The notes under the pieces are model-generated. The model saw nothing but the letters and a program-made list of their open reading frames with translations, did not search any database and was not told where the DNA came from. Shown here piece by piece: positions 7,313-39,372 of a DNA stretch of 39,372 bases. The translations under genes were made by a program, and so were the position numbers. Position 1 is the stretch's first letter. Every line of letters starts with the position of its first letter. The stretch is from a virus, in the IMG/VR virus record IMGVR_UViG_3300025508_003355, positions 1 to 39,372 of that record, one strand, 5' to 3'.

Positions 7313-7313
7313 T

Positions 7314-17667: not shown

Positions 17668-20600
17668 TTATTCTCCCGGACAACCTATCCAAAGAGGCAT
17701 CCATTCGTAATTAACCCTTATAACCATAGCTAGTGTGTTTGAGCCTGCCTGCTGAGACAAGCTTGTATCTCTATTATAGCATGTAATCGTTTCTCCAGAC
17801 TCACTTAAAGCCCCGCTTCCCTTAGCGCTTTTTGTTTTTCTTAAAACCTTTATAGTAAAAGTAGTTGGCTCTAAAGGACTGGGGGGCGCTGTTATTTCTG
17901 AATCTAAAATACCACAAATAATCTCTGGACCACCCACCCAAATTTTTCTTTCCTCATCCCACAACAGTCTAACTGGACCCGCTTTTCTAAGCGCAGGATC
18001 GTTTTGGAATTTAGGATCAAACTTTCTTAAATCTTCACCATCGTTAGGAACCGGATTAAAAGCTATGTCATGCCCCCATCCAGCCGCAATTTTAGGAAGA
18101 CTATCAGCAACAGTTCTAACCGCAGTCACACTTTTCTTTTCTGCTTCTGTCATTTTGTCGGGAGAAAAATCATCAGGAGGACCATTAGGTGTATCTACAA
18201 TCAAACCATCAGAAGTATTTCTTTCAAAGGTCTTAGTGCCATCGTCTTCATTAACCTCTGTAGAAAAGAAGGGATCAGAAGTTTTGCTATTTGGAAGTAT
18301 ACCCTCTCCATCTTCTTCTCCTTCTACTTGAGGCTTTTCTAAAGATGGCATGTTTTGATTTTTAGATTTGTCCTTGCTTATATGAACTGGAACAAAATTG
18401 TTATCTCTAGAAGCTCCCGCAACCCGATCATATATACCACCGTTTTCTGCTGTACCACCTATATCACTAGTACTAATATCAGAAATAGACCAAGTACCAT
18501 CCAAATCTCCTTGTGGCGGAAATATTTGACCTAAACTAAGACTAATATCTTGTCTATTTAGTCTATTAAGAAGATCCTCAGCAGTTAACGGAGGCGGTGG
18601 AGGTAAAAGCGCTCTTTTTTGTATTTTAGCCCTCTCTCTTTGTGCAAGCTCTAGGCTAGCTTTATTTATCCTAGCTATTCTATCTATGTTATATTTTGCC
18701 AGTTTACCAAACTGAGGCGTCCAAGTGTTAAACTTATAAGTAGTTTTAAATCCGCTAATATCAATAGTGAAAGACATATCGGAAACATAGGGTCCACTAC
18801 CAGCAAATCTTTCTGCAATATTGTAAGCTGGAAATTCTGCAATTTCCACGTAACCAGTTTCACTTCCGCTCATTTCAGCATTCCCCACGTTAGCCAAAGC
18901 TTCACCGGCCTGATTCATTCCAGAAACAGTACCAAAACTCTCTGGAACTAAACTTTCGTCCTGTATTACTTCCGCCTTCCCTTTAAGGCTACCACCTATC
19001 CACGGACCCCAAACATATCTATTGCTTTGTTGGGCTATACCAAAGGATCTTGGAGTAATAACTCTAGGAGGAACTGCTATTTTTGTATTAGCTTTTCCGG
19101 GACCGATATAATTCTGCGGAGGAATTTTTATGCCAAAGAAATAATCAGCAAGAACAGTAAGTCCAAAGTCTGTGGTGGTTTTACTATCATATTCTAATAT
19201 CTGCTGTCCAGCATTCATAACAACAAAAGGTGTTGCCATAAAATCTCCACTTCGATCTCTATAGAATATAGCACTCTTTTCTATAGAACAGCCATTGCTA
19301 GCAACGCCCTGTCCCCCAGTTTGCAAAGTGTCTTCTTTATCAAAATTTTGATTATGCAATCTTCCGCTATATCCAGCATAGTTGCTACCCAGTTTACTAA
19401 AATCTCTTTCTGAAGTATATCTCCATTCTACATAGGTTTTTGTTCTTCCATTGGAATCAAACATTGCGATGTCATTAAACCTAAACCCAGCACCCCCCGG
19501 ATCAAAAGCTGAGTCTACAGCTTCCCAGCTAGTCTCATATTTTTGATCTTCTGTTATAAATCTAATATTATTATCAATACCCCCCGGCTCCGTAGGCATG
19601 GGTAAGGCAAACATTTTTCCGTAAAAATTATTTGCGGTATTTTGAACAGCCGCAAAAAGCTTGTCTACATATTCCTCCACGGATTCGTTAAAATTGTTTT
19701 GAAAATCTGTGTTAAAAGATTTTTGAGCAGAAATTTTAGAGGTAGAGGCTAAGTGTAAAGCGCCCCTAGTACCAGCCTTTAGAACATTTAACGTAGCCTC
19801 ATCAATATCCATGTCTACACACCAAGGAGCTTTTTGAGGATCGTTGTATTCACCATTTGCAACAGATTCAAAAACCTTAAAAGTTTGCCAAGAGTTTCTT
19901 CCTCCTCTTGCCATTCTTAACTCAAAAATACTAGCAGCGTATTGCGATATAGGTGAAAATGGATCTACCCACACAGGAACTTTATTTCTATCTTGATAAC
20001 TTTCACTAGTGGTTTTAGCAGATCCGCTGGGACCAAAGTCAAAAACGTAACTACTATCTTGCAACTTGGCCCAAATAGGAAATGCGTTTGCTAAATCTCT
20101 TGTTACAAGTCTACTTCCCGGACCTCCTAAGACAATTTTTTGAGTTGTATCATCTGTCAACTCTTGACCGATAGATGAAGATATTAACAGTTCCCTTTCT
20201 TTAAAATCATTAACTAAAGACCTAATAACACCAGCAGAAGGTTGAGCGCCTTTACTTATAGCTTTTATTTTAATGTTAGGGTTTTCTATCAAGCCGCCTC
20301 CGTCATCTCCTTCCGCACCTTTTACTGGCGGTAAAAACCTACCAACAGCAGAATCTGGCTCAAGCGTTACAAAATAATCGTTTTGAACCAACTCAGTAAC
20401 ATCAGATATTACACCATTTACACTTTGTGTTACGCCTTGGACTCTATAAAAATCAGGAGCTATATTTTTTATCTCGCTCAAATCTATTTTAAAAAATTCT
20501 TGACTTCCAAAAGCGCATTTATGAGCAAATGCAGCAGTTGGATTTTCTTCCGGGCAAGATAAAATCTCTATAGTTTCTAAAAGTTTATTTGCTAAAAAGC

Positions 20601-21897
20601 CTGCGCTATTTGTTTGAGCGGCTCCAAAAATACCCTTTTTACCTTCAAATTCAAAAGTATGATTTTCAAAGTGTCCTAAAGCATTATATACATTATTTAC
20701 TTCTGTTGTTATGTTGGGATTAACACTAGAAGGTCTAAATCTATTGTATTCATTCCCTTCATCGTAATTGTATTCTGTACCTTCAAAGCTGTCCATTATA
20801 ACTTGAACGCCATCAAGCAATTTAGCGGGAGACTCTAATATTATATCATAGTACCTTCCGCTGGTAGAATCAGAATAAGACCATCTTACAAAAATCCCAC
20901 CAAACTCAAAACCCCTATACTTAAAATAACAAGCGGCACCAACGTCAGGAGGGGTCCAAACATAACCGTTTCCGGGATCTTCTATCAATCTTAGACTACA
21001 GGTGCTGCTGGTTCCACCCCAGCCAACAGACGCACTAACGCTTTGTACATAACATCCAAACATAGTAGGAGCTATGTCTGGACCGCTAACCCTTTTAAAA
21101 ACTGTAAAAGGCAGTGTAACTTCTGCGGTATTCCAATTAGCCGCGTTAACAGGAGTAAAAACCGCAGTTATATTTGTAGACTCTGTAAGCTCTGCCCCTT
21201 TATCGGGACTATAACTAAAAGAGCCGGGAATATCATTTCCTAAACTTTGCGCTTTAGCATCTGGAAAATCTAAAACATAGGGCGTTTCTACTGTGGCATC
21301 AGGCGTTCTTGTTTCTTGAAAAACTCCGTTTTCAAAAATTCCCCAGTCAATTTGAATATCACCCCTCAAAACTTCAAATTCAATCTGTAGTATATCGCCA
21401 TCCTGCGGCAAAGACTTGTAGTTATCAATGTCCGTAGGAACAAAAATAGCAGTGACCGTTTGTAAACCAGCGCTTAGTTCTGTACCAATCGCTGGACTAT
21501 AAGTAAACTCACCCGCAACATCTGCCGTTGCGCTAAGTTGCTCAACAGACAACTTGGGTCCAGAAGATCCATCATATGTATACTTTATACTGGGCGGATT
21601 ATTCCAAACCACCACAGGAGTAGCTTTTTCTACCGTTAAAGAAGCTGTACCAGTTATATTAGATCCCAAACTAGCGTCCGTTGGATCAAACGTAACAGTT
21701 AAAGTATAGACTCCAGAATCAAGTTTTGTTCCAGCCGCAAGAGTGCCGCCAGAGTATGTATATGTATAAGTCCCATCAGGAGAATAATCATCACCATCAG
21801 CGTCTTGATAAATAGCGCGAGCAGAAAATATTGATTCCTCAACAACTTCTCCGTAAACTATCTGACCAACATTAGGTTCCCATTTAATAGAAGCCAA
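17668..21897 (-). CDS. Large tail/baseplate protein with Ig/MBG-like repeats, 1409 residues
   Basis: It starts at TTG 21897, supported by AAGGAG seven bases upstream; the previous gene ends 11 bases earlier. Residues 1-270 hold about three repeats of an Ig/MBG-like module, recognisable by GxFTYSPxxGxxL followed by FxPTDxxNY. From about 271 (IAPTMFGCYVQSV) a different region begins: beta strands with GWGG and RGFEFGGIFVRW motifs that recall phage baseplate-hub or late-control proteins, at low confidence. Near residue 1098 a run of five prolines (LLPPPPPL) ends a coiled helix. The C-terminus is beta-rich. Its place between the 537- and 713-residue proteins suggests a baseplate or tail-tip part. 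Confidence 0.7.
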   Translation of the reverse strand: MASIKWEPNVGQIVYGEVVEESIFSARAIYQDADGDDYSPDGTYTYTYSGGTLAAGTKLDSGVYTLTVTFDPTDASLGSNITGTASLTVEKATPVVVWNNPPSIKYTYDGSSGPKLSVEQLSATADVAGEFTYSPAIGTELSAGLQTVTAIFVPTDIDNYKSLPQDGDILQIEFEVLRGDIQIDWGIFENGVFQETRTPDATVETPYVLDFPDAKAQSLGNDIPGSFSYSPDKGAELTESTNITAVFTPVNAANWNTAEVTLPFTVFKRVSGPDIAPTMFGCYVQSVSASVGWGGTSSTCSLRLIEDPGNGYVWTPPDVGAACYFKYRGFEFGGIFVRWSYSDSTSGRYYDIILESPAKLLDGVQVIMDSFEGTEYNYDEGNEYNRFRPSSVNPNITTEVNNVYNALGHFENHTFEFEGKKGIFGAAQTNSAGFLANKLLETIEILSCPEENPTAAFAHKCAFGSQEFFKIDLSEIKNIAPDFYRVQGVTQSVNGVISDVTELVQNDYFVTLEPDSAVGRFLPPVKGAEGDDGGGLIENPNIKIKAISKGAQPSAGVIRSLVNDFKERELLISSSIGQELTDDTTQKIVLGGPGSRLVTRDLANAFPIWAKLQDSSYVFDFGPSGSAKTTSESYQDRNKVPVWVDPFSPISQYAASIFELRMARGGRNSWQTFKVFESVANGEYNDPQKAPWCVDMDIDEATLNVLKAGTRGALHLASTSKISAQKSFNTDFQNNFNESVEEYVDKLFAAVQNTANNFYGKMFALPMPTEPGGIDNNIRFITEDQKYETSWEAVDSAFDPGGAGFRFNDIAMFDSNGRTKTYVEWRYTSERDFSKLGSNYAGYSGRLHNQNFDKEDTLQTGGQGVASNGCSIEKSAIFYRDRSGDFMATPFVVMNAGQQILEYDSKTTTDFGLTVLADYFFGIKIPPQNYIGPGKANTKIAVPPRVITPRSFGIAQQSNRYVWGPWIGGSLKGKAEVIQDESLVPESFGTVSGMNQAGEALANVGNAEMSGSETGYVEIAEFPAYNIAERFAGSGPYVSDMSFTIDISGFKTTYKFNTWTPQFGKLAKYNIDRIARINKASLELAQRERAKIQKRALLPPPPPLTAEDLLNRLNRQDISLSLGQIFPPQGDLDGTWSISDISTSDIGGTAENGGIYDRVAGASRDNNFVPVHISKDKSKNQNMPSLEKPQVEGEEDGEGILPNSKTSDPFFSTEVNEDDGTKTFERNTSDGLIVDTPNGPPDDFSPDKMTEAEKKSVTAVRTVADSLPKIAAGWGHDIAFNPVPNDGEDLRKFDPKFQNDPALRKAGPVRLLWDEERKIWVGGPEIICGILDSEITAPPSPLEPTTFTIKVLRKTKSAKGSGALSESGETITCYNRDTSLSQQAGSNTLAMVIRVNYEWMPLWIGCPGE

Positions 21898-21904: not shown

Positions 21905-21910
21905 CTCCTT
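21905..21910 (-). promoter_or_regulatory. Shine-Dalgarno site that decides the TTG start at 21897
   Basis: AAGGAG on the minus strand, seven bases before TTG 21897 and in the short gap after the 537-residue gene. It supports the rare start codon for the 1409-residue protein. Confidence 0.75.
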
Positions 21911-23522
21911 AACCTTGATTAAATTCCCAAGTTTCTGATTTATTATAAGCCCTAGTGTTAGGATTCCAAGACTCTGTAGAAGCAGTTAAAAAAGTGTTAG
22001 CACCCGTTGGCCTATATGCGCTTATCGCCGCCTCTCCGTCAGGCTTGCCAGAACCCCTTTTCATCACAGCGTCTACCGTTATAGTTCTACTGCTAATTTG
22101 TGTAGTTTGTATATCTTGGATTATTGGCCCATTTGCCCTTCCTATAACTTGTAAAACAGCTATAAGTTTTTGCTCACCCTTATCATTATTATAGTTAATT
22201 GAAACAGCTTCCGACACGGCGTCAGTTATTTTCGGACGGTCATAATCATTAAATGACACACTATAAGTAATGCTTCCGGCAACCTTATTATGTCCTACAC
22301 TTTCACTAAGTTTAAGATCTGTATTAAGAGCAAAATTTCCTCCAGAATCTTGATAAACCCTTTTGGCTAAATTAGGAATGAGTGGCTTAACTATACCAAA
22401 GGTTTTTAAAGCTCCAGCATATTTATCTATTTTAGTGCTGTCTGAAGTTACAGTAGATAAACCTTGAAACGTTGCATTAGCAGTCAAAGTAGCGCCCTCA
22501 GCGCTTGCCGACCCCTCAAAAGTAAACTCTAAACTATGGGTAGACTCAAAATTTTCTTGAGACACAACCCAAGTATCAGTTACACTATAACTTCCTACGT
22601 TCTGATCAGAAGAAACAGATCTGCTATGATTATACCCCTTATAAGAGAGCGCTCCTGATTTTAGGTTAAAACCAAGCTCGTCCGTAGCTCCGGGCTTATT
22701 CATTTCTATAGGGAGAAATTTACTACTAAAAAATGTAGTGTCTCCCATTAAATCTTCTGTTATATCTATTGTAGGATCAGTAACAAGCCTACCACTAACC
22801 CACTGAACAGCCTGTCTAAATGCCTCTCCGTCAGCAGCAAGAGTTCCGGGAGCAGAGTATTTTTTTAAACCCGTAGCGGAAACGGTGTGTGTGAGAGTGT
22901 ATGTTTTATGAAGGTTGTTATTTGCTTCATTAGGCGCGTCTGACTGATAAAACAAGCCATCAGCTTCAGTAAGCTCCCAACTTTCATCTACAGAAGACAG
23001 TTTGTAAGCAGGCTTAACTGGCCTACCGCTAGAACCGGTATTGGTGTTATTAGAATCTTCTTCATATGCCTCAAAACTAAACGAATATTCTAAAGTTTGA
23101 ACTCCAGCGCTTTCTTCTGTTTGTTCTGGCAAATCAACACTAACAAGTTTGGCATCATTAAAAACAATAACATTAGACAAACCGCCATAGGCACTTATTT
23201 CTAGCTTGCCAGTACCTTGATTGGGAAATTGTTCTCTTAACATCTGTAAAGAGGTTATAGCCTCTCCCATAACGCGACTTTGTCTTTGGCCCTTTATAGT
23301 TATATCTTGATTATCATCTACAGAATTTATAAGAGCCGTGCCGGTTACATTTATGGTAAATTTTGTACCCATAAAAGTGCCATCACCAGTAGATAAATTT
23401 TCTCTACCTATAGAATATCTTGGCATTGGACCAACAATTCCACTTGTGCCAGCAGATAAAGAGCTTGTGCCACCAATTGATAATCTAGTAGTTGCAGATT
23501 GGTTCGATGTGTAAAGTATCAT
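21909..23522 (-). CDS. Putative tail/baseplate structural protein, 537 residues
   Basis: A beta-rich protein (many Ser, Thr and Val; alternating pattern) with an acidic character. An internal SxSFEAYEED strand near residue 155 is reminiscent of tail proteins that carry a repeated beta-sandwich; two related segments of the type YSFSFEAYEED and ITYSVSFNDYD hint at a duplicated fold. There are no catalytic motifs. Its ATG overlaps the TAA of the 3230-residue gene in a TAATG junction, so it is translated by re-initiation at a fixed ratio to it. Function is inferred from position only. Confidence 0.65.
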   Translation of the reverse strand: MILYTSNQSATTRLSIGGTSSLSAGTSGIVGPMPRYSIGRENLSTGDGTFMGTKFTINVTGTALINSVDDNQDITIKGQRQSRVMGEAITSLQMLREQFPNQGTGKLEISAYGGLSNVIVFNDAKLVSVDLPEQTEESAGVQTLEYSFSFEAYEEDSNNTNTGSSGRPVKPAYKLSSVDESWELTEADGLFYQSDAPNEANNNLHKTYTLTHTVSATGLKKYSAPGTLAADGEAFRQAVQWVSGRLVTDPTIDITEDLMGDTTFFSSKFLPIEMNKPGATDELGFNLKSGALSYKGYNHSRSVSSDQNVGSYSVTDTWVVSQENFESTHSLEFTFEGSASAEGATLTANATFQGLSTVTSDSTKIDKYAGALKTFGIVKPLIPNLAKRVYQDSGGNFALNTDLKLSESVGHNKVAGSITYSVSFNDYDRPKITDAVSEAVSINYNNDKGEQKLIAVLQVIGRANGPIIQDIQTTQISSRTITVDAVMKRGSGKPDGEAAISAYRPTGANTFLTASTESWNPNTRAYNKSETWEFNQG

Positions 23523-26500
23523 TAGTCCAAAAATCCTCTTGTAAACATATTAAAATTACTATTCTCTAAAGTCTTTAGCGTTAAACTTATTCCACTGTTT
23601 GAAATGTTAGCCCCGTCTACATATAGATCAGAAACCCCAGAAGCTATACGACTATCTATAAACAAGTTAGCTGAATTTCCAAATGATTTTTGTATAAAGA
23701 GCGGCGAGACACCACTTTCAATATACTCACTTTTAATACTTAACAAAGCGGTTTGATTAAATTTGCTAAATACTCCAGCGTCATTATTTCCGTTCAACGT
23801 CAAGGATACTAAGCCGCTTTCGATCAACCCTCCAAAACCACCAGTAAAAGGAATTTCCGTCTTAATCATCAAAGGATTAACAGAAGTAACGCTACCGACA
23901 ATAGGAGCATTTAAATATAAATTAGTTTCGCTGAAAGAAGAACTTTCAAACATTCCAGAAACAGAAAGGCTTACATCGTTTTGACCTAAATCCGCCCCCG
24001 GCGTAAACGACACAGGAGATTGAACAAAAAGAGAAGCCGACCCATCTGAGTAAATATCTTTTCCTATAAATAACGTTCTGTCGTTAGAGTTGCCTATTCC
24101 TATCGAACCTTCAACAAAGGTAGAAACGTTGTTATTTTTAACTGCGGCACTAGGCTTTGTAATCAATGGAGCAGAAAAACTAACTTCTTGATTTTTTAAT
24201 ACTAATCCAACCTGCGAGCTTGAGTCTATAGAAACTCCCCCAATCCTTAAAGGTGCGTATGGGTTATTAACCCTCTCTGTATACAAAGGAAGGTTTTGAT
24301 TAGAAAGTAGATTACTTACGAATAGCGGCGCATCACCAGACCTAGACACAACAGGAGCGCCCATAAATAGGGGCATTTCTCCGCTTGGTCCGTTTGCAAG
24401 ATTATAAAGAGAGGCGGAACTATTAATTCCAATTGGCCCACTAATAAACAAAGTTCCATTTGAAGACCTGTTTAAATCTATAACAGAAAGCTTTTGAATT
24501 CTAATAGATTTATTTGCAACATCAGAAGAACTTCCAGAGTTTAATTTTAAGAAAAACTCTCTAACAACTAAAAGTCTGTCTCTAGATTTAGCTTTAAGCT
24601 TTTTAATAGAAGCTATCCTAGACCACCGATATATATTATCTTCTGAAAATAACTGTAATCCATCAGCATTGTAAGGATTTATTTCTGATTTAACTGCTTC
24701 AGAACTAAAAGTTAATACACCGTCTCTGTTTTCATAACTCAACCCAAAAACAGAATTATCCCTTAAATTATAAATAGTACTATCATTTTGATACTTCCTG
24801 AATCCCAAGTCAGTATCTTGAGAAAGGGTCGCATCAGACCAAGAAATTACATCCTCTTTTCCTAATAAAACTACATTAGAACCAAAATTGTCACCGGCAG
24901 AAACTGTAGTCCCATTAGGCAGAGATACACTTGAGGCAGAGTATGTTTTCAACAAAGACGGCGTAGAAGATATATCAAATGCATAAACTTTTCCCGAATT
25001 AATAATATTAGATCCATCGCCTCCCGGCTCAGAAACTACCAACACTCCTTCATTATAATCAAAATCATAACCAAACAATGCGCATTCAGAAGCAGAAATT
25101 GCACCACCCCTATAAGATCCTAGATTAGAAATAATATTAGCAGATGTAAACCCTTTAGAGTAAACCGCTCCGTGGTAAGACCAAGAATCGCTACTAGCAG
25201 ACCTTTTATAAATATAAACTGCGCCCATTGCATTTGGCGAGTGCGAATCCGTCAAAGTGTTAAAAACATACGGATCAAGCAATGGAGCGTTAATCAGCAT
25301 TATTTTATTACTTGTTTCATATTCATCAAAAATCTTTATAGAGGTTGCAAAACCAACCCTCCTTTCTGATGATTGAATATATGCTGCATTAGAATTATAG
25401 TAAGAAGCATCTGATAGTTGAGAAAACTTTACAACACTTTCATAATTTTTATAGCCACCTTCACTTAAAAGCCTGTAAACTTCTCCTAAAGATCCGCTAG
25501 AAACACCCCTTCTATCAAAGTAAACATCTTGATTATCAAACGCTAGACTATAGCCAGAATTTTCTTTTTCTGCATCTTCGCCGCTTTCTTCTAAGATTAT
25601 CCAACCGTAATCAGATGCGCTATTAAAACCTTGAGAAACACCTTTATAGTTATTAATATTGAAAACAATTATAACATTAAAGGTACTAGCTGAAGTTTCA
25701 AAGTCTTTTGAATACTCAACCCTAACCCTCAGCGAAACAGCGCATTTGTTATTGCTAGATATTTTAACGTCATTGACAGAAACCTTGCCAGTATTTAATA
25801 TTTGTGATTTTTCAAAACTTTTTCCATGAATAGTTTTTACTTTATTGTAAATATCTTCTCTTATAGAATAGAAGGGATCTAGCACGCCTAAAGAAAGCTG
25901 TTGAGAATCTAAAGAAGACCTAGAAGGTGCCATTCTAATTATACCACCATGATTCCTTTCTCCTATTTGACTAACATTGCCATCATCATCTAAGTCATAA
26001 AAACTAAGCTCTATAACATCACCAGCAATAGAGGTCTTGATTAAATAATCATCGTTAACATCATAAGCTTCTTGTTTTATAGTATAGTTAGGGGTTTCAA
26101 TATCAGACTCTTTATTATTATTTTCATAAAAAGCTTTAACTAAACTATTGCTTCCGAGTTTTGACAAAGTAAAAGCTGGATCTTTATATTCCACTCCTTC
26201 AGATATAAAACTAGAACGAAGAGAAGAAGACATAAACCAAAGCTTACTCCTGTCTGCGGAGTCATAATCCATTCTATTTCTAGAATAAATATCTTCATTT
26301 ACCACATTGGCAACAACTGAGTTTGATTGATAAATTTTTCCAGATAGATTCTTGATTATGGCACTCTCTCTACCCTGACCAAATATTCCGCCTTTATCAA
26401 ACAGTTGATCAGAAACCGTAGGAGAAACAGAAGTAACGCCGTTTCTATTTGAGTTAGCTGTATTTATTTCTCCTTTCGTCCTCAAGGGGGTCTGACCAGA

Positions 26501-29500
26501 AGCAAACTCTTGGGGCTTTATAAACAGGTCAACATCATTATTAATGAGATCAAATTGATTTCCTGTAAACAAGCTGATTCCCTGAACGCCAGAAGCCTTA
26601 GCGTTAAACGTGAGAGGCATTTTTCCACTAGACTCAAGATGTTTAACAATGAAAAGCGGAGTAGCACCGCTATAAATCGGATTCATTGCTAAACCGATAA
26701 ACCCGCTATCTGGAACGCTTGCCTCTGTATAAAGAGGAAATAGGCCAGTGGAGAAAAACACACCGGAAATACTTAAAGGCGAAGCTTTACTATCTAAAGC
26801 GTGAGACTGAATATTTAAAGGTGTAATCCCGGTAGCTTGAATAGGTCCAATGGTATATAAGCTAGCGGTTTTAGTTACAGGAGGAGCGACAACTAAAGAA
26901 ACTCCTCCAGACGCATCAGGAGCATCTGTAAATAAAGGAGATATTGCAGAAGGAGCTACCTCAAAAGTAAACAACGGAGCATTATTTCGCCCTATAAGCG
27001 CCCTCAAGAAAAGAGGAGACTCAAAATTAAACTCATTAACACCAATCCAAAGTGGCGATACGCTTGTACGGGAAGTTAACCCAGCCGTCACAAGAACCCC
27101 TCCGCTGTTGGAAATTTCATGCGAATTTGCGGTTAACGTTATAGCATTAGTTTCAGTGGGGTTTGTGTTCATAAATAAGCTCAAATACTCTGGAGACTGA
27201 ATATCAAAGCCTCCCAGAAGCGTATTTGTAGCAAACTCGCTTTTTCCTATAACGTATCCCGTAGGGGGAGTCACATACTCTAGAAAACCTGTATCTTCAT
27301 TTAAATAAATATTTGAAGAAGTCCCGCGAGCGTCCGAATAATATATACTATCTGTATTTAGAATCTGTAAAGAGCTAGAAAACGAACCATCTTTAACTAA
27401 GCCAGAATCCGAAGAGGCAGAAGACCTACTTATCGCGACTATAGGATTTGATTTTACAAGACTTGTTTTACGACCTTCTGCTTCACTATAAGGACGACGA
27501 ATAGACTCTGGAACAGGAACTAAATTACTAAAACCAAAATCAGAATAAACTTTTGCATCTGCGCTATCTATATAAAATTTTCTAACTTCATCTCTTTCCG
27601 CTTTATTGTAATTAAAAACAGCAATTTTATGAAATGAATTTCTATATCTTCTGCTTAATAATCTCTTCTTGGAAATAGAAACATCTAGGTTTCTAACCTT
27701 GGCCCTAAGCTCGTACTCAAGCTGACTTAACCCCAAACCCTCTCTAACGACCTCTGCCCCATTGAGCGTGAACTCATAAAAATTAACATCAGGAGTGTAT
27801 GCATATCTAGCATTTGGAAAATTGCTATTGGTAGAATCCGTCACTCCTATATGTCTGATAGGCCCAGTTTGTAAATTTAAAGAAGGCTCTTGATGCAAAG
27901 TTTCTGCTGTCGTTATGTCAAAAGAGTTTACGTTTGTCAAAACAAAACCTATAGCAAGCGTATAATTTATATCGCTAGCACCAGAATAAAGGTTTGAAGA
28001 GTCGTTAAAGTTTCCGGCAACAGAGGTTGGCCTGTTAACATCTTTAACCAAACTACCATCAATAACAAAATCTCTAACATCTTGAGCAGATATATTTACA
28101 GAATAACCATCAGGGTTCAAAGTCGGAGAAAATATCTTGGCATATGGCAATATGTGCGCTATTTCATTTGGGGTGAAGTGCTGATAAACATCTGGGGCTA
28201 TCCAAGCAGGATCACCAGCGTCACCACCACCCCTTGATCCAGCGGTCAAATCATAATATTCTCCAAGATTTATATTGCCCCCATATAGATACGGCAACGT
28301 CGCCCTTTCTGGAAAATCAACCTTTCCAGTTTTTATCAATGAACCGGGAAGCCTGCCGTAGAAAAACAAATCTTGTGCGCCGCCCCTATAGTATCCCGGA
28401 TACATATCTGAATAATACTCTGAATGCGGTCCAGCGTCCCACCTCGGCCTGCTCCATAAGCCATTTTCATAGCGAGGATATATAGATGAACTACTCCCCC
28501 TTGTGGCGGGTCCATTTTCTATAATCGTAGATCTTGGATCTTTACCGTACAAAACAATTCTTGGTACAATGTTATTTGTTTCTTCATTTTGATTCAAGGT
28601 GTTAAAAGAGCTAAATAAATCTTCCTGTAGTATATCAAAATTTATAGTGATATCATTCACCATGTCTAGGCTGTCTAAAGGAAGCTTTAGAAAAAAGAAT
28701 GGAGTTTTATTTGTTCTGTATGTAGATATTTCTCCACCAGAACTTGCACAATCATATTCCGTAGTAGATTGAGGAATGTAATTGTAATTAATTGTTGTAC
28801 TAGACTTTAACCTTTGAATAGAAGCGTCTTCGCTAATACCTAGATAAATAGGAACCCTATCTTCATAATTATCAGAAATGGAAAACGCTTCAGACTGAGA
28901 ATAATCCCTATCAAAAAGAGAGTATTCTATAGCATCTTTAACAACTATTTTTTTTCCAGCTAAGTCATAACGATTACTTAAATCTATATCCCAAGCCGAA
29001 GTATGAAGCGAGTTATTGTCATAATTAAAAGCATTTTTAATAGGTATCATATCTGGCATAAGATAATCAGCACTTTTAAAATACTCAGAATAATAATCTT
29101 CTCTAGACTCATCTATAGCAGTAAGTATTTTCTGAGAAAAATCAAACGACGATTTGTTTCTAAATATTTCATAAACAAAAATTTGATCTATAAAATGACC
29201 ATCAATACCACCCAAGGTAGCTATGAGATCTCCACCTTCATCTTCGTTATCTAGTGAATTAGTTAAAAATAAACGATCTTCATATTTAAAATCTAAACCA
29301 AAACCCTCTCCAGTATATTTTTCTCTCCTTGGATTTTTAAACGCTTTAGATATTGTTTTAGCAGGATTGAATTTACCAGAAAATGTAAAGAAATGAACTA
29401 TAGAATTTCCATTAGATATGTCTTGCTCGCTCCAAACTATGTAGTCATCTTTCCATAAAATTTTAGAACATGAAAGTTCCGCCGCAGAAATAACTTCTGA

Positions 29501-32500
29501 CATACCCTTTCCGCCAGCCGTCCCCGTACCGAGACTACTGTATGATATTCCGTTAGTAGTTAATATCTTTTCTCCAGAAGAGAATCTGCCGCCCACAGAG
29601 CCAGCAGAGTTGAAAGGTATATAGTCAACATTTTTGTAAACATTAGAACTATTTTTATAAAGAAAATGAGCGGTTATTTGTCCTATCTGGCTTACCGTTT
29701 CGGCGTCCGACAAATTTGCATCCTTGGCGAGAACGGGCTGTTCAAGACTATTGCTAATATCTATATTAGATCTCACCCTTGAGGCGGAAAGAATGACGGT
29801 TTTTGGATTAGACTCTGGATACAAAGAAGGAGATAAACTTCCTAAAGATAGAGATGAGCTATTGTGTATTGAAACAGCTTTACCAAAACTATCCACCCAA
29901 GGAAAAATAGCCCAATATTGGACACCCTCTCCATATAAATCGTCTTCCGGCGACCCAAACCTATCTATAGTCTCTATATTTTCCCCAATACCAAATCTAC
30001 TGCGATTACCTAAAGAATCGGTTAATTTACATCTTCTATCTGATTTTATATTTCTTTTTAGTACTTCTCTGAATTCCCCGGTATCCAAGTCTTGACGAGA
30101 ATATCTATCGTAGATATTTTGACCCTTCCAGTGCATAACTGCACTTCTTAGCCAGTATCTAGAGTTGCGACGAACATTAGGATTGGTGGAAGTGTCTATT
30201 TTTTGATTGTCTGTAACACGCTCGTTAAAACTAGATATACTGCTAAAAGTGTCACCAAAACTAATGATATTCGCGCCTAGTCCCGTGGTTAATCCGGGAG
30301 ATCTAGCTCTATAGTTGTATCTAGAAGTCCACTCAAAATCAAGCCAAGGATTATACTCAATACCCGCCAGATCGCTGGAGTCTATAGTATCTCTTCTAAC
30401 ATCACTTTTAGAGATAGAGCCTCCGCCACCAAAAACGGTGTCTTCGTGAGATAAATCGCTAATTCTTCCATACTGATCTAAAGTTATAGATATAAGGTGC
30501 GTTCTGCCGTAGGGTAAATAATAAGGAGTTATTTTTTTTCTAAATGTCTGATAAAGCTCTTGTTGCTCATCGCTCCATTCCATATTAGGTTTTTCAAAAA
30601 GCTGCTCCGAAGGCACCACTCCAAACAGATCTACAGAAACATCGGAACCCCGTTCTCCCACTGCTAAAGTGTAAACTCTGCTATTTCCAGAATAATGAGA
30701 AAATTTCAAATCCATACTGGACCCAAACCTCATCCCCGGATATGGAGACTTTATGTCTGAACCTTCGAGAGCAGGATTAGGGTCAACAAAATTAGAAAGA
30801 TCGTCTTGACAATGGTATGGAAAGAAATCCTGCGGACCCCTTCTTGGATCGTCTAGGGGAGTACTGTAAACGTCTGAGAAAACAACAGGTATATTTTCTT
30901 CTAGCTCTTTAGCAAACTTAGTGTTCATCCAGTACCCTATAGGGCCAGCGGAAAACCCAAGATCTGAAAAATATAATCCAAGTTCTCCAAAGGGCAATTC
31001 TATAGACTTTCTATCGGTAGCAGGCGTATTTTCAGATACTCCACTTTTTATTCTCTTGGTTGTAAAAAACGAATCTTTTGCGGCTAAAAAGTTTGCATTA
31101 CCAAGGCTAGACGAAGGATCTGGGTGAGAATATCCATTTCTACCAGTAGGAGAAAACATGCTACCATAGTAGTCCCAAGACTGACCAAGAGATCCAAAAT
31201 TATTAGAAACGCAAGTCCAAACAATACCTTCTGTAGTTTTTAAATTTTCCGTAGATGTGGCGTCTTTAAAGTACTGGTCATCGTAAACCTCAAAGGTGTC
31301 ATCATCTATTTTTTTTACAAACTTATTACCATTTAAGGGATGAATATCAGCAATACCATTTTGCGCTCCATCAAATATGGCAGAAGAAATTTTAATAATA
31401 TCATTATTATTCAAATTATGATTTGAGGAAGTGATAGAATTATTTACAACAGCGGATATTATGCCTGTTTTTCTTGTGTATATATCTACCTTACCACACT
31501 TGCGAACTGGCTGAAACTTCATTAAAGTACACTCAGTCATCTTGTGAGCCGCTATGTAATTTTTTAAGCCATTAGAGACAAAAGCGGACAAATCGTCAAA
31601 ATTGCCCTCAAACTCAGGAGATTGACCCCAGTTACTCTGCACAGAAAGTTGAATACCTACCGTATCTCCAGTGTTAATAAGCCTTCCGTCATCCAATTGT
31701 TCTGTACTATCTTTTACGACAACGTAAAAGTAACCAACAACAAGATCGTCTAGGTCTGTCAAATCTTTCTGATTAGCGGAAAATGTATCAACCAATTTGG
31801 GATTCTGCGGCGTCATAACGCTAAAGCCACTCTGTTTCCAGTCTCTAAACTTTTTAGATGCGCAGTTACTTAGAATAGACCTTGGAAGTGGGTTATTTGC
31901 CCTGTCTAGATTATTGTAAGGTATATCACCAGAGTTTACATAAAGTCCAGTGTCATCTTTAACAACTCCACCAAATATGAAATATGCAACTTTGGGCAAT
32001 TGTTGATTGACTATCTGACCATTAACTTGCTGCGTAAAGCCAATCTTTAAAATAGAATTTGAGTACGAATCAAAATCAGAAGTAAAAGTGTGTTTTTTAG
32101 GAGGGTCTAGCTGAAAACTATCAAAAGAATAAACTTTTTCGTTTGTTTTATCTAAAGAGTCTGTTCTAAATCCAAGCGTTCCAATTCTAGATATACGAGT
32201 AATCATAGTATCAGGACCGGGATCAATATCACCACCACCACCGCCACTTGGTACATATCCATTATAGGTAGTACCGCTCGCACTAAAGCCCAAGCTGCAA
32301 CCGCCGCCCGCCAAGTAGTTTAATGTGTACGACCCTATGCTAGAAATATCATCCGAACAATTTTTACCAGAACTAGAAGATGGAGTATAAGCTAGATTGA
32401 AAATACCACTATAAGAAGAGCTGCCCCCAGAAAAAGAACAGTAATGAGTACCAGAAACAGGTATACTAACGGTAGTATTAGCACATCCCCCGCCAGTACA

Positions 32501-33214
32501 AGAACACGCATCTTGAACTTTTGTTCCCGTTATGTTACCACCCCAGCCGCCATCATTAGGAACAGTAGCAGAGAAAGACCAAGTAGAAGTTGAAGGAGTG
32601 TAAGTTAACGTAATACTCCCGGTAGGACTAGAGCCTTCAAAGTTCGCGGACCAAGTTCCAGATATAGTCCAACTAGAGACCCCCATTCCGTCGTCGGTAT
32701 CTCCTGCTGGAACACTTCCTCCGGCTCCGGGAGTTGTTACCTCAATATTAATATTTTGAATAAGCTGTTCAACGGAAACGCCATTTTGTAAAAGAGGAAT
32801 ATCTTTTCTATGTACATCTGTATATTCTTCTTGCGCAACAAACGCTATATCATCTAATATTTTTATATCATTAGGAGTCCAAGTATCTGTAAATTCAACA
32901 GTTCTCCTGCCTTCCGCAATATCTGTAGAACCATGTATAAAATCGTCAAAATAAATACCACCAGCTTTTGGCTTTTGCTCCATAGTACTAAAACTTAATG
33001 AAGTTGGTTGAACGTCATCAAATCTGGCAAAACTTTTAGATTCTATGGAGTTAGCAATATTTTCCCAGTTAGTAAAATGTTGTATTCCTTCCGCAGCACT
33101 TTTAATCCCCAAAGGCATAGCGCGATTCTGACCATCTTTAACTCCGTCCGAATCGGACTTCATAAATAAAGAAGAGCCTTGTTGTAATTTATTACCATTA
33201 AAATAATCTTGCAT
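23522..33214 (-). CDS. Giant fibre/adhesin-like virion protein, 3230 residues
   Basis: The largest gene in the window. Visible regions in order: an N-terminal part; a Gly/Ser/Thr-rich, cysteine-bearing beta insert (about 145-330) with CSCTGGGC and two similar TYTPS/AYTPS strands; a fibre-type module near 597-648 (NHNLNNND to FEVYDD); a long unassigned stretch; repeat block A (about 2009-2249); an FG-GAP/propeller-like region (about 2630-2780, GAVYIYKR and GKVYAFD motifs); and repeat block B (about 2916-3230). Both blocks repeat a roughly 14-residue unit with a [PSN]-L-[FY]-[IVT] strand. This suggests an elongated tail fibre or adhesin. It starts at ATG 33214 with AGGAT ahead, eight bases after the tape-measure stop. 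Confidence 0.8.
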   Translation of the reverse strand: MQDYFNGNKLQQGSSLFMKSDSDGVKDGQNRAMPLGIKSAAEGIQHFTNWENIANSIESKSFARFDDVQPTSLSFSTMEQKPKAGGIYFDDFIHGSTDIAEGRRTVEFTDTWTPNDIKILDDIAFVAQEEYTDVHRKDIPLLQNGVSVEQLIQNINIEVTTPGAGGSVPAGDTDDGMGVSSWTISGTWSANFEGSSPTGSITLTYTPSTSTWSFSATVPNDGGWGGNITGTKVQDACSCTGGGCANTTVSIPVSGTHYCSFSGGSSSYSGIFNLAYTPSSSSGKNCSDDISSIGSYTLNYLAGGGCSLGFSASGTTYNGYVPSGGGGGDIDPGPDTMITRISRIGTLGFRTDSLDKTNEKVYSFDSFQLDPPKKHTFTSDFDSYSNSILKIGFTQQVNGQIVNQQLPKVAYFIFGGVVKDDTGLYVNSGDIPYNNLDRANNPLPRSILSNCASKKFRDWKQSGFSVMTPQNPKLVDTFSANQKDLTDLDDLVVGYFYVVVKDSTEQLDDGRLINTGDTVGIQLSVQSNWGQSPEFEGNFDDLSAFVSNGLKNYIAAHKMTECTLMKFQPVRKCGKVDIYTRKTGIISAVVNNSITSSNHNLNNNDIIKISSAIFDGAQNGIADIHPLNGNKFVKKIDDDTFEVYDDQYFKDATSTENLKTTEGIVWTCVSNNFGSLGQSWDYYGSMFSPTGRNGYSHPDPSSSLGNANFLAAKDSFFTTKRIKSGVSENTPATDRKSIELPFGELGLYFSDLGFSAGPIGYWMNTKFAKELEENIPVVFSDVYSTPLDDPRRGPQDFFPYHCQDDLSNFVDPNPALEGSDIKSPYPGMRFGSSMDLKFSHYSGNSRVYTLAVGERGSDVSVDLFGVVPSEQLFEKPNMEWSDEQQELYQTFRKKITPYYLPYGRTHLISITLDQYGRISDLSHEDTVFGGGGSISKSDVRRDTIDSSDLAGIEYNPWLDFEWTSRYNYRARSPGLTTGLGANIISFGDTFSSISSFNERVTDNQKIDTSTNPNVRRNSRYWLRSAVMHWKGQNIYDRYSRQDLDTGEFREVLKRNIKSDRRCKLTDSLGNRSRFGIGENIETIDRFGSPEDDLYGEGVQYWAIFPWVDSFGKAVSIHNSSSLSLGSLSPSLYPESNPKTVILSASRVRSNIDISNSLEQPVLAKDANLSDAETVSQIGQITAHFLYKNSSNVYKNVDYIPFNSAGSVGGRFSSGEKILTTNGISYSSLGTGTAGGKGMSEVISAAELSCSKILWKDDYIVWSEQDISNGNSIVHFFTFSGKFNPAKTISKAFKNPRREKYTGEGFGLDFKYEDRLFLTNSLDNEDEGGDLIATLGGIDGHFIDQIFVYEIFRNKSSFDFSQKILTAIDESREDYYSEYFKSADYLMPDMIPIKNAFNYDNNSLHTSAWDIDLSNRYDLAGKKIVVKDAIEYSLFDRDYSQSEAFSISDNYEDRVPIYLGISEDASIQRLKSSTTINYNYIPQSTTEYDCASSGGEISTYRTNKTPFFFLKLPLDSLDMVNDITINFDILQEDLFSSFNTLNQNEETNNIVPRIVLYGKDPRSTIIENGPATRGSSSSIYPRYENGLWSRPRWDAGPHSEYYSDMYPGYYRGGAQDLFFYGRLPGSLIKTGKVDFPERATLPYLYGGNINLGEYYDLTAGSRGGGDAGDPAWIAPDVYQHFTPNEIAHILPYAKIFSPTLNPDGYSVNISAQDVRDFVIDGSLVKDVNRPTSVAGNFNDSSNLYSGASDINYTLAIGFVLTNVNSFDITTAETLHQEPSLNLQTGPIRHIGVTDSTNSNFPNARYAYTPDVNFYEFTLNGAEVVREGLGLSQLEYELRAKVRNLDVSISKKRLLSRRYRNSFHKIAVFNYNKAERDEVRKFYIDSADAKVYSDFGFSNLVPVPESIRRPYSEAEGRKTSLVKSNPIVAISRSSASSDSGLVKDGSFSSSLQILNTDSIYYSDARGTSSNIYLNEDTGFLEYVTPPTGYVIGKSEFATNTLLGGFDIQSPEYLSLFMNTNPTETNAITLTANSHEISNSGGVLVTAGLTSRTSVSPLWIGVNEFNFESPLFLRALIGRNNAPLFTFEVAPSAISPLFTDAPDASGGVSLVVAPPVTKTASLYTIGPIQATGITPLNIQSHALDSKASPLSISGVFFSTGLFPLYTEASVPDSGFIGLAMNPIYSGATPLFIVKHLESSGKMPLTFNAKASGVQGISLFTGNQFDLINNDVDLFIKPQEFASGQTPLRTKGEINTANSNRNGVTSVSPTVSDQLFDKGGIFGQGRESAIIKNLSGKIYQSNSVVANVVNEDIYSRNRMDYDSADRSKLWFMSSSLRSSFISEGVEYKDPAFTLSKLGSNSLVKAFYENNNKESDIETPNYTIKQEAYDVNDDYLIKTSIAGDVIELSFYDLDDDGNVSQIGERNHGGIIRMAPSRSSLDSQQLSLGVLDPFYSIREDIYNKVKTIHGKSFEKSQILNTGKVSVNDVKISSNNKCAVSLRVRVEYSKDFETSASTFNVIIVFNINNYKGVSQGFNSASDYGWIILEESGEDAEKENSGYSLAFDNQDVYFDRRGVSSGSLGEVYRLLSEGGYKNYESVVKFSQLSDASYYNSNAAYIQSSERRVGFATSIKIFDEYETSNKIMLINAPLLDPYVFNTLTDSHSPNAMGAVYIYKRSASSDSWSYHGAVYSKGFTSANIISNLGSYRGGAISASECALFGYDFDYNEGVLVVSEPGGDGSNIINSGKVYAFDISSTPSLLKTYSASSVSLPNGTTVSAGDNFGSNVVLLGKEDVISWSDATLSQDTDLGFRKYQNDSTIYNLRDNSVFGLSYENRDGVLTFSSEAVKSEINPYNADGLQLFSEDNIYRWSRIASIKKLKAKSRDRLLVVREFFLKLNSGSSSDVANKSIRIQKLSVIDLNRSSNGTLFISGPIGINSSASLYNLANGPSGEMPLFMGAPVVSRSGDAPLFVSNLLSNQNLPLYTERVNNPYAPLRIGGVSIDSSSQVGLVLKNQEVSFSAPLITKPSAAVKNNNVSTFVEGSIGIGNSNDRTLFIGKDIYSDGSASLFVQSPVSFTPGADLGQNDVSLSVSGMFESSSFSETNLYLNAPIVGSVTSVNPLMIKTEIPFTGGFGGLIESGLVSLTLNGNNDAGVFSKFNQTALLSIKSEYIESGVSPLFIQKSFGNSANLFIDSRIASGVSDLYVDGANISNSGISLTLKTLENSNFNMFTRGFLD
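23525..24470 (-). repeat. Repeat block B of the 3230-residue protein, C-terminal
   Basis: About 18 units with spacing of mostly 12-16 residues carrying [PSNTD]-L-[FYx]-[IVT] strands (MPLFM, APLFV, LPLYT, TLFIG, NLFID), running to the last residues of the protein. It matches block A in pattern but is separated from it by about 670 residues. Confidence 0.8.
26470..27190 (-). repeat. Repeat block A of the 3230-residue protein (~14-residue PLF[IVT] units)
   Basis: About 15 imperfect units of 12-20 residues, each with a short strand such as SPLFT, TPLFI or FPLYT followed by a polar or Ser-Gly turn. The DNA is diverged between units, so this is an old protein-level repeat, not a recent DNA expansion. 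Confidence 0.8.
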
Positions 33215-33222: not shown

Positions 33223-36200
33223 CTATGCCACATTAAAGTCGTTTCCATCTGGCAATAACGGTTTTACATAATCCGCCGCCAGCTTTCCGATTTGATCAAT
33301 TGTTTGAGCGTCCAATTTGCTTTCAGCGCTTCCGGCAGTTACGGTTACACTGTGTACGTGATTCATCTTTATACCCTCGGAACCTCCAAATACTTTAGCT
33401 AAATCTTGAAGAGCCTGCGCCATTGGCGAAAAGACTCCAGTTATTTTATCTAACTCTGAAGAAAAATTGCCCACAAAATTACTAAATGATTCATCTAAAT
33501 TTGCTGTATTTATTGATATACCACTGCCACCAAATTCAGCACCATTGCTACCATTAGCCCTATAAGCAACGCCACCCACCATGCCGCCGCGATTGAATCC
33601 GGGAACTTGACCACGATTCAATGCTCGCATAGTGCCTACGCCATGCTGCCTAACTGCTCCAGCGCTCATCACAAACTCGCCGGGGGTTAGCATGGCAGGA
33701 ATAACATCGCTTCCGGCGGCACTGCCCCCAGCGGCAAATCCCTCTGGTCTTTGCCTACTTCCCCTATTGACCATTTGTCGTAAAAGTTGTTGTAGTAATT
33801 GGTCTGTGTTAGACGCGCCTGCTTGTTGAGATCTTCCTCGCCCTCTAGTAAATCTAGTCTTTGGAGGCTCATAACCAGAATAATTTGCGAATCTTTGCGC
33901 TGCTGCTGGGCCTTGAGTTCTTAAAATTCTTTCGTATCTAGCTTTATTGATAGCATTATTTGAATCAAGCTCCGCGCCCTCTTCTTGCTGCCGTCTAGCT
34001 AATTGCGCTGGTGTTCCTCTTTGACCTCTGGGTAAGATGCCTCTTCTTTTCCGAATATCCGCTCTTCTTTTGTCTCTTCTTTGTTTTAATGCGGCCTTTT
34101 TAGCCGCTTCGGGACCGGCTAAAGCCGAAGAGTAAGGGTTCATATCAAGAATACCGCCCCCGGCATCTAAATCATAATCTTCTACCGTTAGTGCCTCTCC
34201 AGATTCGGTAAATCCTGTAGTTATACTTGTTGGTCTTCCCGGCTCCATCCCTAGAGATTTCATGAACTCGTTTTCTCTTGTCTTTCTTGCTGTAAATTCT
34301 TCTAAACTTTCACCAGCTTGTTTTTTCATTTCATCGCCAGCAGCAGTTCCCGGAGCAACGGGCGCGGCGGCCCCAACCTTTTGTTTGTTAGCTTCTGTTT
34401 CCGCTCGTTTAGCTTTAGCCTCTTCTCGTTTCGATCTTCTTTGTGCTTCTTTAGCGCTAACGGCAGCACCTTGAGCAGTTAAAACTTTTCCACTCTTGGC
34501 ATCAGGGTATTTTTGGGGGCCAGCGTCTGTTGCAAACGGATCTGTACCCCCTCTTTGTCCAGCGATTCTTGGTTGCGGAAGGGTGCCATCAATAATGTAT
34601 CGCGAAGCAGCGTCCGTGGTATTATTAATAGTTTCACTTGCATACAAGGGTTTTCCTGATGCAGACTGAACGCCAAGCTCGCCACTTCCCGGAAGCTGAG
34701 TTCGTAACCCTGTATCAACGCCAGTTTCAACTTTTTCATATAGTCCAGTTTCTATATTTCTAACATAGCCGGGAATATTAAAGCTTTCCTGTGGTTCATT
34801 AGCATATATTTTCTTACCCTTAGAATCTATGCCAATAAGTTCTCGTTTTCCTTCTCCTGCTGACGGGGTTACTGGTGCAGATGGGAACGAGCTTCTGCCA
34901 TCTCTAATTGCATCCTTTGCAACCCGCTGATTTATAGGAAGATTACTTTGAACGTCCGTATCTGTCTGAGTCAACTGTCCGCGACTAGGACCAAATGACT
35001 CAAGAGTTCTACCCTCATATTCATCACTTATATTACTTATACCAGCCCGCTCCTTGGCGGCTTGTTTTTTATAATAGTTTGTCTGAGCCTGTTGTAGACT
35101 TTTCCTTTCCTTTTCCTCGGCCTGTTGTTGATTTTTCCTCCGCTCTGCCACACTCTGTTCTGATTGAACACTATCAATCGGACTAAAATCCGTTCCCGTT
35201 ACCGTTACCTCTGTAGAAACGCGGGTGTCTAATCCAGCAGTTTGTGAATATTGCTGAAACTCTGAAGTTGAGTCAGGCTTTCGATTATCAATTTCTTCTT
35301 GAGTTATTAGTCCTGCGTCCAACTTCTGCTTGTCTGTCCCCATCCTACTAATCACGTCCAGCTCCATCGCAGAGAACTGATCTTTATCTTTGTTATATTG
35401 TTGGATTTTGCGATAATCAGCCGCATCTCTTGCTTGTTGAGCTTTTGTATCTAAAAATTCTTTTGGGCCGCTCACGCGTTCGCTAAGTGCCTCATCTGCG
35501 TTTTTTGGTTTTAGCGTAGGGTTAAGAATAGGATCATCGGTTGTTTGCTGACTCGTCCCCTTAAAACTAGGCTTGTACCCTTGCTTAATAGCCATACTTA
35601 AATCAATAGGTCGTTGAGCTTTTGCTTCAGCCCTTTTTTCTTTAATGAACTCTTCTTCAAGAGTCTCGAATCCATCTAAAGGAAAATTTTGCTGCAAGCC
35701 GAAAGTATCAACGTTTCCGAATTCACTAGCTAATCTACGTTCAGCTTCAGCATCTCTACGTTCAGCTTCAGCATCTAAGTTTCTTGTTCTATTGAGAGGT
35801 TTTGCTCCACCAGTAGTTGTAGAACCCGCCCCAATGTCTACTCCCGAAAGACTTAAAGACGCTGCGCCTCCACTGCCAATATTTGAAGCCACCGCAGCAG
35901 CGCGTTCGATAAAAGGATCTCCCAGAACACCGCCCGCATATTGAGATCTGGGATCATCGGTCTGTTTTTTTAGATTTCTGTTATAAGCCTCCTCTTCATC
36001 TTTTTCTTTTTTCGAGTACGCCTGAGTAGGCATACCGATTCCACCACGCCCACCCATATACATACCAGTAGAAGCATAAACAGCGCTTACACCACCCTCA
36101 TTTATAGCAGCCAAAGCGTCAGCACCAATACTGTCAACAGCAGATTTTCTAATAACAAACTCGCCCGGACTGAGCATAGCCGGTACAGTGTCTGTGCCTC

Positions 36201-39200: not shown

Positions 39201-39372
39201 TGGTTTCACCAGTACCTTTCTTTATTTCTTGAGTACTGTTCTTTCTGGCTTCAGCTTCATCTTCTGCGTCTTTTATAAGATCTGTAGCGCTACCACCACT
39301 AGAAATCTGCGCGCTAGCAGCGGGTATACCATAATTATTTCTGCCGGTAGTAACAACTCCACCAGCGGCATA
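33223..39372 (-). CDS. Tail tape-measure protein, 5' end outside the window
   Basis: The frame is open from the right edge to TAG at 33223-33225, at least 2049 residues. The ATG at 39090 is internal: 94 codons above it are free of stops and also look like tape-measure sequence. Tape-measure proteins set tail length and enter the host envelope during DNA injection. Visible: hydrophobic Gly/Ala-rich segments (for example residues 261-311), long charged coiled coils with Lys/Glu/Gln, and the tape-measure motif VPAMLSPGEFVI (about 1050-1086), repeated as IPAMLTPGEFVM (about 1886-1924). A perfect 21-base tandem duplication adds a DAEAERR repeat. The product is the first minus-strand gene seen here; tail-assembly chaperones would lie further right. 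Confidence 0.9.
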   Translation of the reverse strand, partial: YAAGGVVTTGRNNYGIPAASAQISSGGSATDLIKDAEDEAEARKNSTQEIKKGTGETKKSSESVKKQTGSFSKLKGSVDKFRDNLSKSSERVRSMAGAAQSFVFIGASIGAVTSQMSGLEDSTKRAINETAGFAAGVVGIGATLVDTFYSMAASNAIQEQSSKRVTQANLEQAASGGGDDDGGDVDEAAEGMGKFGKIMTGLAAGLAVGVTALQFFSAKNKAVADELQKDVKSALEGIKTGVAANADEIKASAASEIEARTLSANQVSYSALGTVAAFAAAGATIGTFVPVIGNVVGGIVGGLIGFGVAMFGASAATDAAIAARQKEIQAIYDTIDSIIALNQAQRDLETGIADIDAAKGLEPAEVVKKRLEVQKSGVGAGAEFQIAQGQLNELAKGTGKSAGQLTEEDFEDDAVKLGKFNASSQAAASAMDVLNKRLQITSETFSLAMQNADPTKTFEELSTQAGPYKDALDAQIAAINERTQVEIFNAKQALENAKGTANETAAKEALAKAEERGKTSIDNLREGAEASHKILYAQAEAARIARDASIALAKSLIENGKFFDGLNKQLQSLQRQSMAIDNFAAALDGAAFKFQEINIDEIDNLTNVRDLSTFAQQLGDAAKGAGPEAQKYVDQLTANAAAFKKAQEGGLLGLEQKLTDDAGSGQTEKILKDLGFSAESLGGGELGKVVFEKMQSELKKALEDGVVDASELEAILGPAEEANAQAVDAAKKLVEIRQQEIANLQKTIDVQNKLREKEIQAREAQVDAIRKGVGFTEKAYATLSKSIDPNADFTPQRGVETRLQNINAQNRLDTLGKGLQAGDVGGVTQARRDAQQRQEEIRKEIEAGGLSIEKTKALIAEQDKLRTIINTTGDELKRLSDRTSEAADIQGAMEQNLRAIEKERRAREQVTGVIEEFVVGGQDARKGLVEAAAGVRQAFSSGTLQMQSPEQRSATVGLLDKLSDTMVAGGMTGRQIKQELVFQDAVRLGLDPKLAEAIATGTSTEEKLIEANRNLAKKMEILSVSMLIAAQGLAPAIPFANGGMVQYRAGGGSIFKPRGTDTVPAMLSPGEFVIRKSAVDSIGADALAAINEGGVSAVYASTGMYMGGRGGIGMPTQAYSKKEKDEEEAYNRNLKKQTDDPRSQYAGGVLGDPFIERAAAVASNIGSGGAASLSLSGVDIGAGSTTTGGAKPLNRTRNLDAEAERRDAEAERRLASEFGNVDTFGLQQNFPLDGFETLEEEFIKEKRAEAKAQRPIDLSMAIKQGYKPSFKGTSQQTTDDPILNPTLKPKNADEALSERVSGPKEFLDTKAQQARDAADYRKIQQYNKDKDQFSAMELDVISRMGTDKQKLDAGLITQEEIDNRKPDSTSEFQQYSQTAGLDTRVSTEVTVTGTDFSPIDSVQSEQSVAERRKNQQQAEEKERKSLQQAQTNYYKKQAAKERAGISNISDEYEGRTLESFGPSRGQLTQTDTDVQSNLPINQRVAKDAIRDGRSSFPSAPVTPSAGEGKRELIGIDSKGKKIYANEPQESFNIPGYVRNIETGLYEKVETGVDTGLRTQLPGSGELGVQSASGKPLYASETINNTTDAASRYIIDGTLPQPRIAGQRGGTDPFATDAGPQKYPDAKSGKVLTAQGAAVSAKEAQRRSKREEAKAKRAETEANKQKVGAAAPVAPGTAAGDEMKKQAGESLEEFTARKTRENEFMKSLGMEPGRPTSITTGFTESGEALTVEDYDLDAGGGILDMNPYSSALAGPEAAKKAALKQRRDKRRADIRKRRGILPRGQRGTPAQLARRQQEEGAELDSNNAINKARYERILRTQGPAAAQRFANYSGYEPPKTRFTRGRGRSQQAGASNTDQLLQQLLRQMVNRGSRQRPEGFAAGGSAAGSDVIPAMLTPGEFVMSAGAVRQHGVGTMRALNRGQVPGFNRGGMVGGVAYRANGSNGAEFGGSGISINTANLDESFSNFVGNFSSELDKITGVFSPMAQALQDLAKVFGGSEGIKMNHVHSVTVTAGSAESKLDAQTIDQIGKLAADYVKPLLPDGNDFNVA
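35734..35775 (-). repeat. Perfect 21-bp tandem duplication inside the tape-measure gene
   Basis: Two identical copies, 35734-35754 and 35755-35775, in frame and encoding DAEAERR twice in a coiled-coil stretch. The copies are exact, so the duplication is recent. It lengthens the coil by one heptad, which keeps the phase of a coiled coil. Confidence 0.95.

Follow-up and report, generated by a model that had tools for sequence, protein, structure and literature searches.

The 3,230-residue giant protein encoded in the window, a stretch of 39,372 bases that forms IMG/VR virus record IMGVR_UViG_3300025508_003355, probably represents, in enlarged form, a core tail-tip protein of a family of uncultured phages, with its C-terminal repeat block (block B) as the core. 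It looks like a small part enlarged about 14-fold because related phages have, in the same gene slot, a small protein that matches the last ~230 residues of the giant.

The gene of the giant (P0001; 23522–33214 (-)) is an intact frame, open from an ATG over 3,230 residues, and its N-terminus (MQDYF) is kept in all full-length giant relatives, including those of L018 and L019. It starts 8 bases past the stop codon of the tape-measure gene (33223–39372 (-)), and its own stop codon overlaps the ATG of a gene for a conserved 537-aa tail-tip protein (21909–23522 (-)) in the sequence TAATG. The gene order is tape measure, giant, and then the 537-aa gene and other tail-tip genes. The position directly after the tape-measure gene supports a tail location for the giant, which had been called a fibre from the letters alone. 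The tape-measure gene was recognized by tblastn to annotated tape-measure proteins and by a PhageMin_Tail domain in the relatives; because it runs off the window end, the record is probably a fragment. The phage family is probably siphovirus-like, since the tape measure contains PhageMin_Tail and inspection of the G002 tail region by eye led to no recognized sheath gene. In close pairs, dN is far below dS, indicating purifying selection.

The repeats were examined with a model of 14 positions, which was trained on one block across five lineages and scanned against the other block, with 300 shuffles as a control. The model trained on block A (residues 2008–2252; 26459–27193 (-)) found 15 sites in block B of P0001 (residues 2917–3230; 23525–24466 (-)), compared with 1.5 ± 1.3 in shuffled sequences (maximum 8). 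Conversely, the block-B-trained model found 15 sites in block A of P0001, compared with 2.0 ± 1.2 (maximum 6). Therefore, the two blocks share one repeat of about 14 residues, as the sequence-only reading had claimed. That reading was also right in placing the repeats in two blocks, but it overlooked two further copies near the N-terminus (residues 11–43, SLFMKS ... MPLGIKS; 33086–33184 (-)), where the block-B-trained model detected 2 sites versus 0.12 in shuffles. This pair is also found in P0005 and P0008, and one of its two units in P0006. In the 1,620-residue middle, just 3–6 repeat sites were detected, which is the chance level. The spacing of 158 sites peaks at 12–14 residues (mode 14), with a second peak at 28–29 where one unit was missed. 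The consensus is roughly S/T-G-x-x-P/S/T-Leu-F/Y-I-x-G-P, and Leu occupies position 6 in 89% of these sites. Among the open frames of the window and of the loci scanned before the short forms were included, at least four repeat sites were found in the giants alone. No tandem repeats were detected in the array at the DNA level, which indicates that the array is old.

Giants were found in the window lineage and in four more lineages, with lengths of 3069–3293 aa, and one of them is truncated. All of the relatives are metagenome contigs. The nearly identical contigs L002 and L003 encode a 3,293-aa giant that is 63% identical to that of the window; more distant giants have 3,187 aa (L014–L017) or 3,069 aa (L018 and L019) and show 32–34% identity where the full length was compared. 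L028 contains a truncated 2,018-aa C-terminal part. Two repeat clusters are present in all five giant lineages, and the order of block A, middle domain and block B is kept in every one. Block A has an almost constant length and is nearly free of gaps across P0001, P0005, P0006 and L018. Compared with block A, block B is less regular, and its length varies by lineage, with ~90 more residues in P0006 than in P0001. The long non-repeat part (residues 45–2007; 27194–33082 (-)) belongs to no recognized family, having no Pfam or PHROG match. It includes an insert (residues 145–340; 32195–32782 (-)) that is also present in P0005 and is mostly missing from P0006 and L018 (173 gap columns). The best conserved regions within the giant are residues 1–140 and 556–720.

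Homology searches with single proteins or an alignment of the N-terminal region found giant lineages only, the propeller alignment added the truncated L028, and the downstream marker protein led to the short forms. This marker is a 1409-aa tail-tip protein (17668–21897 (-)), of which residues ~276–1409 are common to other loci; it recovers the module in 14 loci and has no Pfam or PHROG match at 0.1. The 537-aa protein shows 74% identity in L002/L003 and lies in an equivalent position in giant and short loci. The tail module ends with a 328-aa protein (14195–15181 (-)), whose counterparts in short loci have 320–331 aa as judged from ORF ends. Names such as "hub" (for the 1409-aa protein) and "tail tip" were given to the neighbours of the giant from the gene order.

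The marker search yielded eight more loci that have an equivalent tail module and lack the giant. In these loci, a small gene lies between the tape-measure gene and the homologue of the 537-aa gene, after which comes the marker gene, as in the giant loci; the L051 contig begins near this small gene. The encoded proteins of these eight related uncultured phages range from 218 to 386 aa, and seven of the eight have 218–238 aa and consist of the repeat throughout. The remaining one (L041, 386 aa) has ~170 non-repeat residues between two repeat clusters; therefore, the giants are not alone in having a domain between repeats. The short proteins contain 9–11 detected repeats, compared with 0.8–1.2 in shuffles. 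They have no Pfam match except weak unrelated ones.

A profile of seven short proteins matched block B with a probability of 99.7 and E = 3e-26 over 216 columns, and the column-wise alignment extends to a common C-terminal end. BLASTP of block B against the short proteins gave E values down to 2e-26. Block A is also related to them: the profile of the short proteins matched block A at 3.5e-12, and the comparisons of the short proteins with block A and of block A with block B gave ~4e-12 to 6e-12. Reversed and column-shuffled profiles scored at most 21, compared with 180 for block B and 85 for block A. On these sequence comparisons, the last ~230 residues of the giant are homologous to the short proteins. 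The sequence-only reading had pictured two shafts around a propeller; this picture overlooks the chief finding, namely that the last ~230 residues of block B stand alone in related phages and that the two blocks are therefore not equivalent.

In the mechanism that we propose, the conserved core would be the C-terminal repeat domain, which related phages encode alone (~218–238 aa). The giant lineages would have gained block A, best read as the array in a second copy, together with the propeller between the arrays, the long N-terminal part and the two N-terminal units. The lineage-specific additions would thus comprise block A, the propeller and another ~1,960 residues. As regards virion location and polarity, we infer that block B most likely builds or docks on the tail tip, which would place the giant there in the virion; its oligomeric state and binding, discussed below, are likewise predicted. 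The added domains, including the propeller, would reach outward and contact the host surface, a role modelled on the carbohydrate-binding decorations of evolved Dit proteins. The change was probably from short to giant, which is the simpler direction, given that short forms make up the majority of the lineages recovered. Loss of large parts is also possible, because the tree of the 537-aa protein, whose deep branches are poorly resolved, places the short lineages L049 and L051 among the giant ones. Counting gains and losses on the trees of two neighbours did not settle the direction. An origin by fusion of separate genes was considered as well; the eight short-form records, which may be fragments, yielded no separate gene for the propeller or the middle part.

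One slot that holds either a ~230-residue or a 3,000-residue protein allows a direct comparison of the part that builds the tail tip with the part that meets the host, and the small/giant pair provides an anchor for a whole family of uncultured phage tails. More tentatively, and with less than even confidence, the ~14-residue repeat could represent a new fold for building tail tips, one that works as a scaffold open to expansion: an array of ~230 residues would be the minimal form, to which lineages could add further arrays and, between them, whole domains. The largest outcome would be an adhesion device of 3,200 residues, with a propeller framed by two arrays.

The region between the blocks (approximately residues 2325–2910; 24485–26242 (-)) is predicted to be a beta-propeller on the basis of an AlphaFold2 model, whose local confidence is moderate, and its structural matches. 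VIA-align gave Z scores of 14–18 to many propellers, with matches spanning model residues 295–897; WD40 proteins reached Z = 17.9, and integrin alpha-M gave Z = 15.3 over 330 residues. Modelling thus supports the prediction of a complete propeller of ~585 residues resembling the WD40 and integrin-alpha propellers. An FG-GAP-like region had been noticed here from the letters alone. A propeller is indeed predicted, but the FG-GAP_2-like blade (residues 2713–2746; 24977–25078 (-); Pfam FG-GAP_2, E = 0.0022) scored 18.6 bits, under the 23-bit cut-off, and the stretch belongs to the larger complete propeller. A blade profile detected no further significant FG-GAP blades in the middle part. The calcium-binding role suggested as one option from the letters alone would call for conserved calcium loops in the blades; a candidate loop, DLDDDG at about residue 2407 in P0001, is not conserved in P0006. 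The giant's propeller thus shares with integrin alpha and FG-GAP proteins a predicted fold and a weak family match. However, the sequence match falls below the curated cut-off and WD40 proteins score as high or higher; therefore, no particular propeller family is established. Between P0001 and P0005, the propeller core is 73% identical and the repeat blocks are 51–56% identical. Because the propeller core is among the better conserved parts, its conservation counts mildly against a fast-changing receptor binder.

This slow evolution of the propeller core, together with the nearly fixed length of block A across four lineages, would also suit a giant whose repeat blocks and propeller serve mainly a structural purpose, in the walls or rings of a large complex at the tail tip, the propeller having no part in host binding. 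We regard this as rather improbable, since the tail module of the short lineages lacks both block A and the propeller, which argues that neither is needed for the basic structure. Alternatively, the giant could be a side or central tail fibre of the ordinary kind but of great length, in which the N-terminus docks on the tail tip, as is usual for phage fibres, the shaft consists of the long middle and block A, and the propeller and block B form the distal host-binding end. Conservation is strong in the N-terminal 140 residues (77% identity between P0001 and P0005; 48–49% to P0006 and L018), and the N-terminus could be the docking end instead because this region is conserved as well as any part. 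However, it is the C-terminal block that persists in every relative, even where nothing else of the giant is present; one would expect a distal receptor-binding end to be the most variable part, yet the C-terminal end is common to the giant and short forms. An ordinary fibre is therefore unlikely in our view, and an enlarged tail-tip core with block B at the tail is preferred.

The fold of the repeats, for which a beta-solenoid or a trimeric shaft had been suggested from the letters alone, was approached by AlphaFold2 modelling of single chains. The model of residues 2031–3230, built with seven rows, had a mean pLDDT of 42; many stretches of the middle reached 50–84, and the repeat blocks remained at ~21–43. 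Block A modelled with 15 rows had a pLDDT of 38. In both models, the blocks show a short strand every ~13 residues at a pLDDT under 50. This regular strand would be expected of monomeric beta-solenoids, and the Foldseek matches of the block A model were mostly beta-helix proteins (SufB/SufD, LpxA, GlmU and the P22 tailspike). However, all of these matches have E values above 1 and are not significant, and the confidence stays under 50 nearly throughout the blocks despite 15 aligned rows; the solenoid is thus one tentative reading of the models. Low monomer confidence would instead fit a fold that needs partner chains, such as a trimeric shaft with a beta-roll like that of YadA heads or a triple beta-spiral. 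The YadA-type heads are homotrimeric left-handed parallel beta-rolls with a ~14-residue repeat and an invariant glycine per layer (PMC9543794). The giant repeats share with them the ~14-residue period and the beta strands, and may also form a trimer. However, they lack the invariant glycine (the best Gly column reaches 34%) and a Pfam match, and their signature is a near-invariant Leu followed by an aromatic residue and Ile/Val. We hold the trimeric shaft to be possible, with the same reserve as the solenoid.

Among known systems, the evolved Dit of siphophages is, by analogy, the nearest concept to the short/giant pair. In the TMP-Dit-Tal triad of these phages, Dit has a plain core in some phages and added carbohydrate-binding domains in others (PMC7291167). 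The likeness lies in the gene position directly after the tape measure and before further tail-tip genes, and in a core tail-tip protein that is plain in some phages and carries added domains in others. In contrast, the giant matches no Pfam or PHROG family, Dit included, and its core is an array of strand repeats; evolved Dit proteins gain one or two carbohydrate-binding modules, and the addition here amounts to ~2,900 residues. Dit is also marked by a hexameric belt plus a galectin fold; the single-chain models of the giant's repeats have low confidence. Because the sequence test for Dit failed, the giant was not classified as an evolved Dit. Gp45 of Staphylococcus phage phi11, a receptor-binding protein of 636 residues with a helical stem, a five-bladed propeller and a C-terminal tower (PMC4901313), likewise belongs to the tail tip and has its beta-propeller between other domains. 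The propeller of the giant is larger and flanked by repeat blocks, and no sequence relation to Gp45 was found. The source passage on gp131 of phage PhiKZ describes a seven-bladed propeller at the baseplate periphery, with unproven function (PMC4901313). It resembles the giant in having a propeller on a phage tail structure and differs in phage type; no sequence relation was seen, and that passage mentions no repeat blocks.

Except for the weak FG-GAP_2 match, searches of Pfam, PHROGs, INPHARED, the GTDB genome contigs and the PDB recovered no relatives at the sensitivities used, and the repeat family is absent from the protein libraries searched. INPHARED gave no match for pieces of the giant, the repeat blocks, the 537-aa protein, the marker proteins, a short form or the 330-aa protein; the genome contigs gave none for the propeller or marker alignment, and the PDB sequence search gave none for the giant or the block A/B profile. 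Matches of the short/block B profile to PDB antibody light chains (best E = 1.4e-5) and to ankyrin were set aside as compositional because they covered ~57 positions of unrelated folds. Vibrio phage Ares1 was matched by the tape-measure protein only, and no giant gene follows there.

Several features were observed beside the giant. Residues 1–275 of the 1409-aa protein are absent from the L015 and L028 versions and resemble repeated Ig-like units; the L002 version has a similar start. In the giant lineages L015–L017 and L018/L019, two genes that start like the 537-aa one lie in tandem, compared with one in the window (553 and 529 aa at L015:14793–18053; 534 and at least 463 aa at L018:19212–22215). 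The 2578-aa tape-measure protein of L018 (L018:2257–9993) matches ADP-ribosyltransferase families at residues ~935–1021 just under the cut-offs (ART, 21.3 of 22.3 bits; ADPrib_exo_Tox, 20.2 of 23.4), and it might bear an enzyme acting on the bacterial host. L011 encodes an 878-aa protein (L011:15757–18393 (-)) with many TVGGGxxNTAS-type repeats and a weak match (20.7 bits, cut-off 27) to UspA1_rep, a trimeric adhesin repeat, and a Laminin_G_3 protein adjoins it (L011:18396–19076).

In the window, a 713-aa protein (15517–17658 (-)) has no Pfam match at 0.01, and its stretches DFNLDGSIDDFDFF and DTNNDGTINESDE resemble calcium loops of the dockerin or EF-hand type. A run of nucleotide-sugar genes (211–11758 (+)) includes DHDPS-like, DAHP/KDO8P-synthase-like, cytidylyltransferase, PhyH, C-methyltransferase, FdtA-like, NTP_transferase, NAD-dependent epimerase/dehydratase and DegT aminotransferase families. 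These genes may modify surface sugars of the host or the virion.
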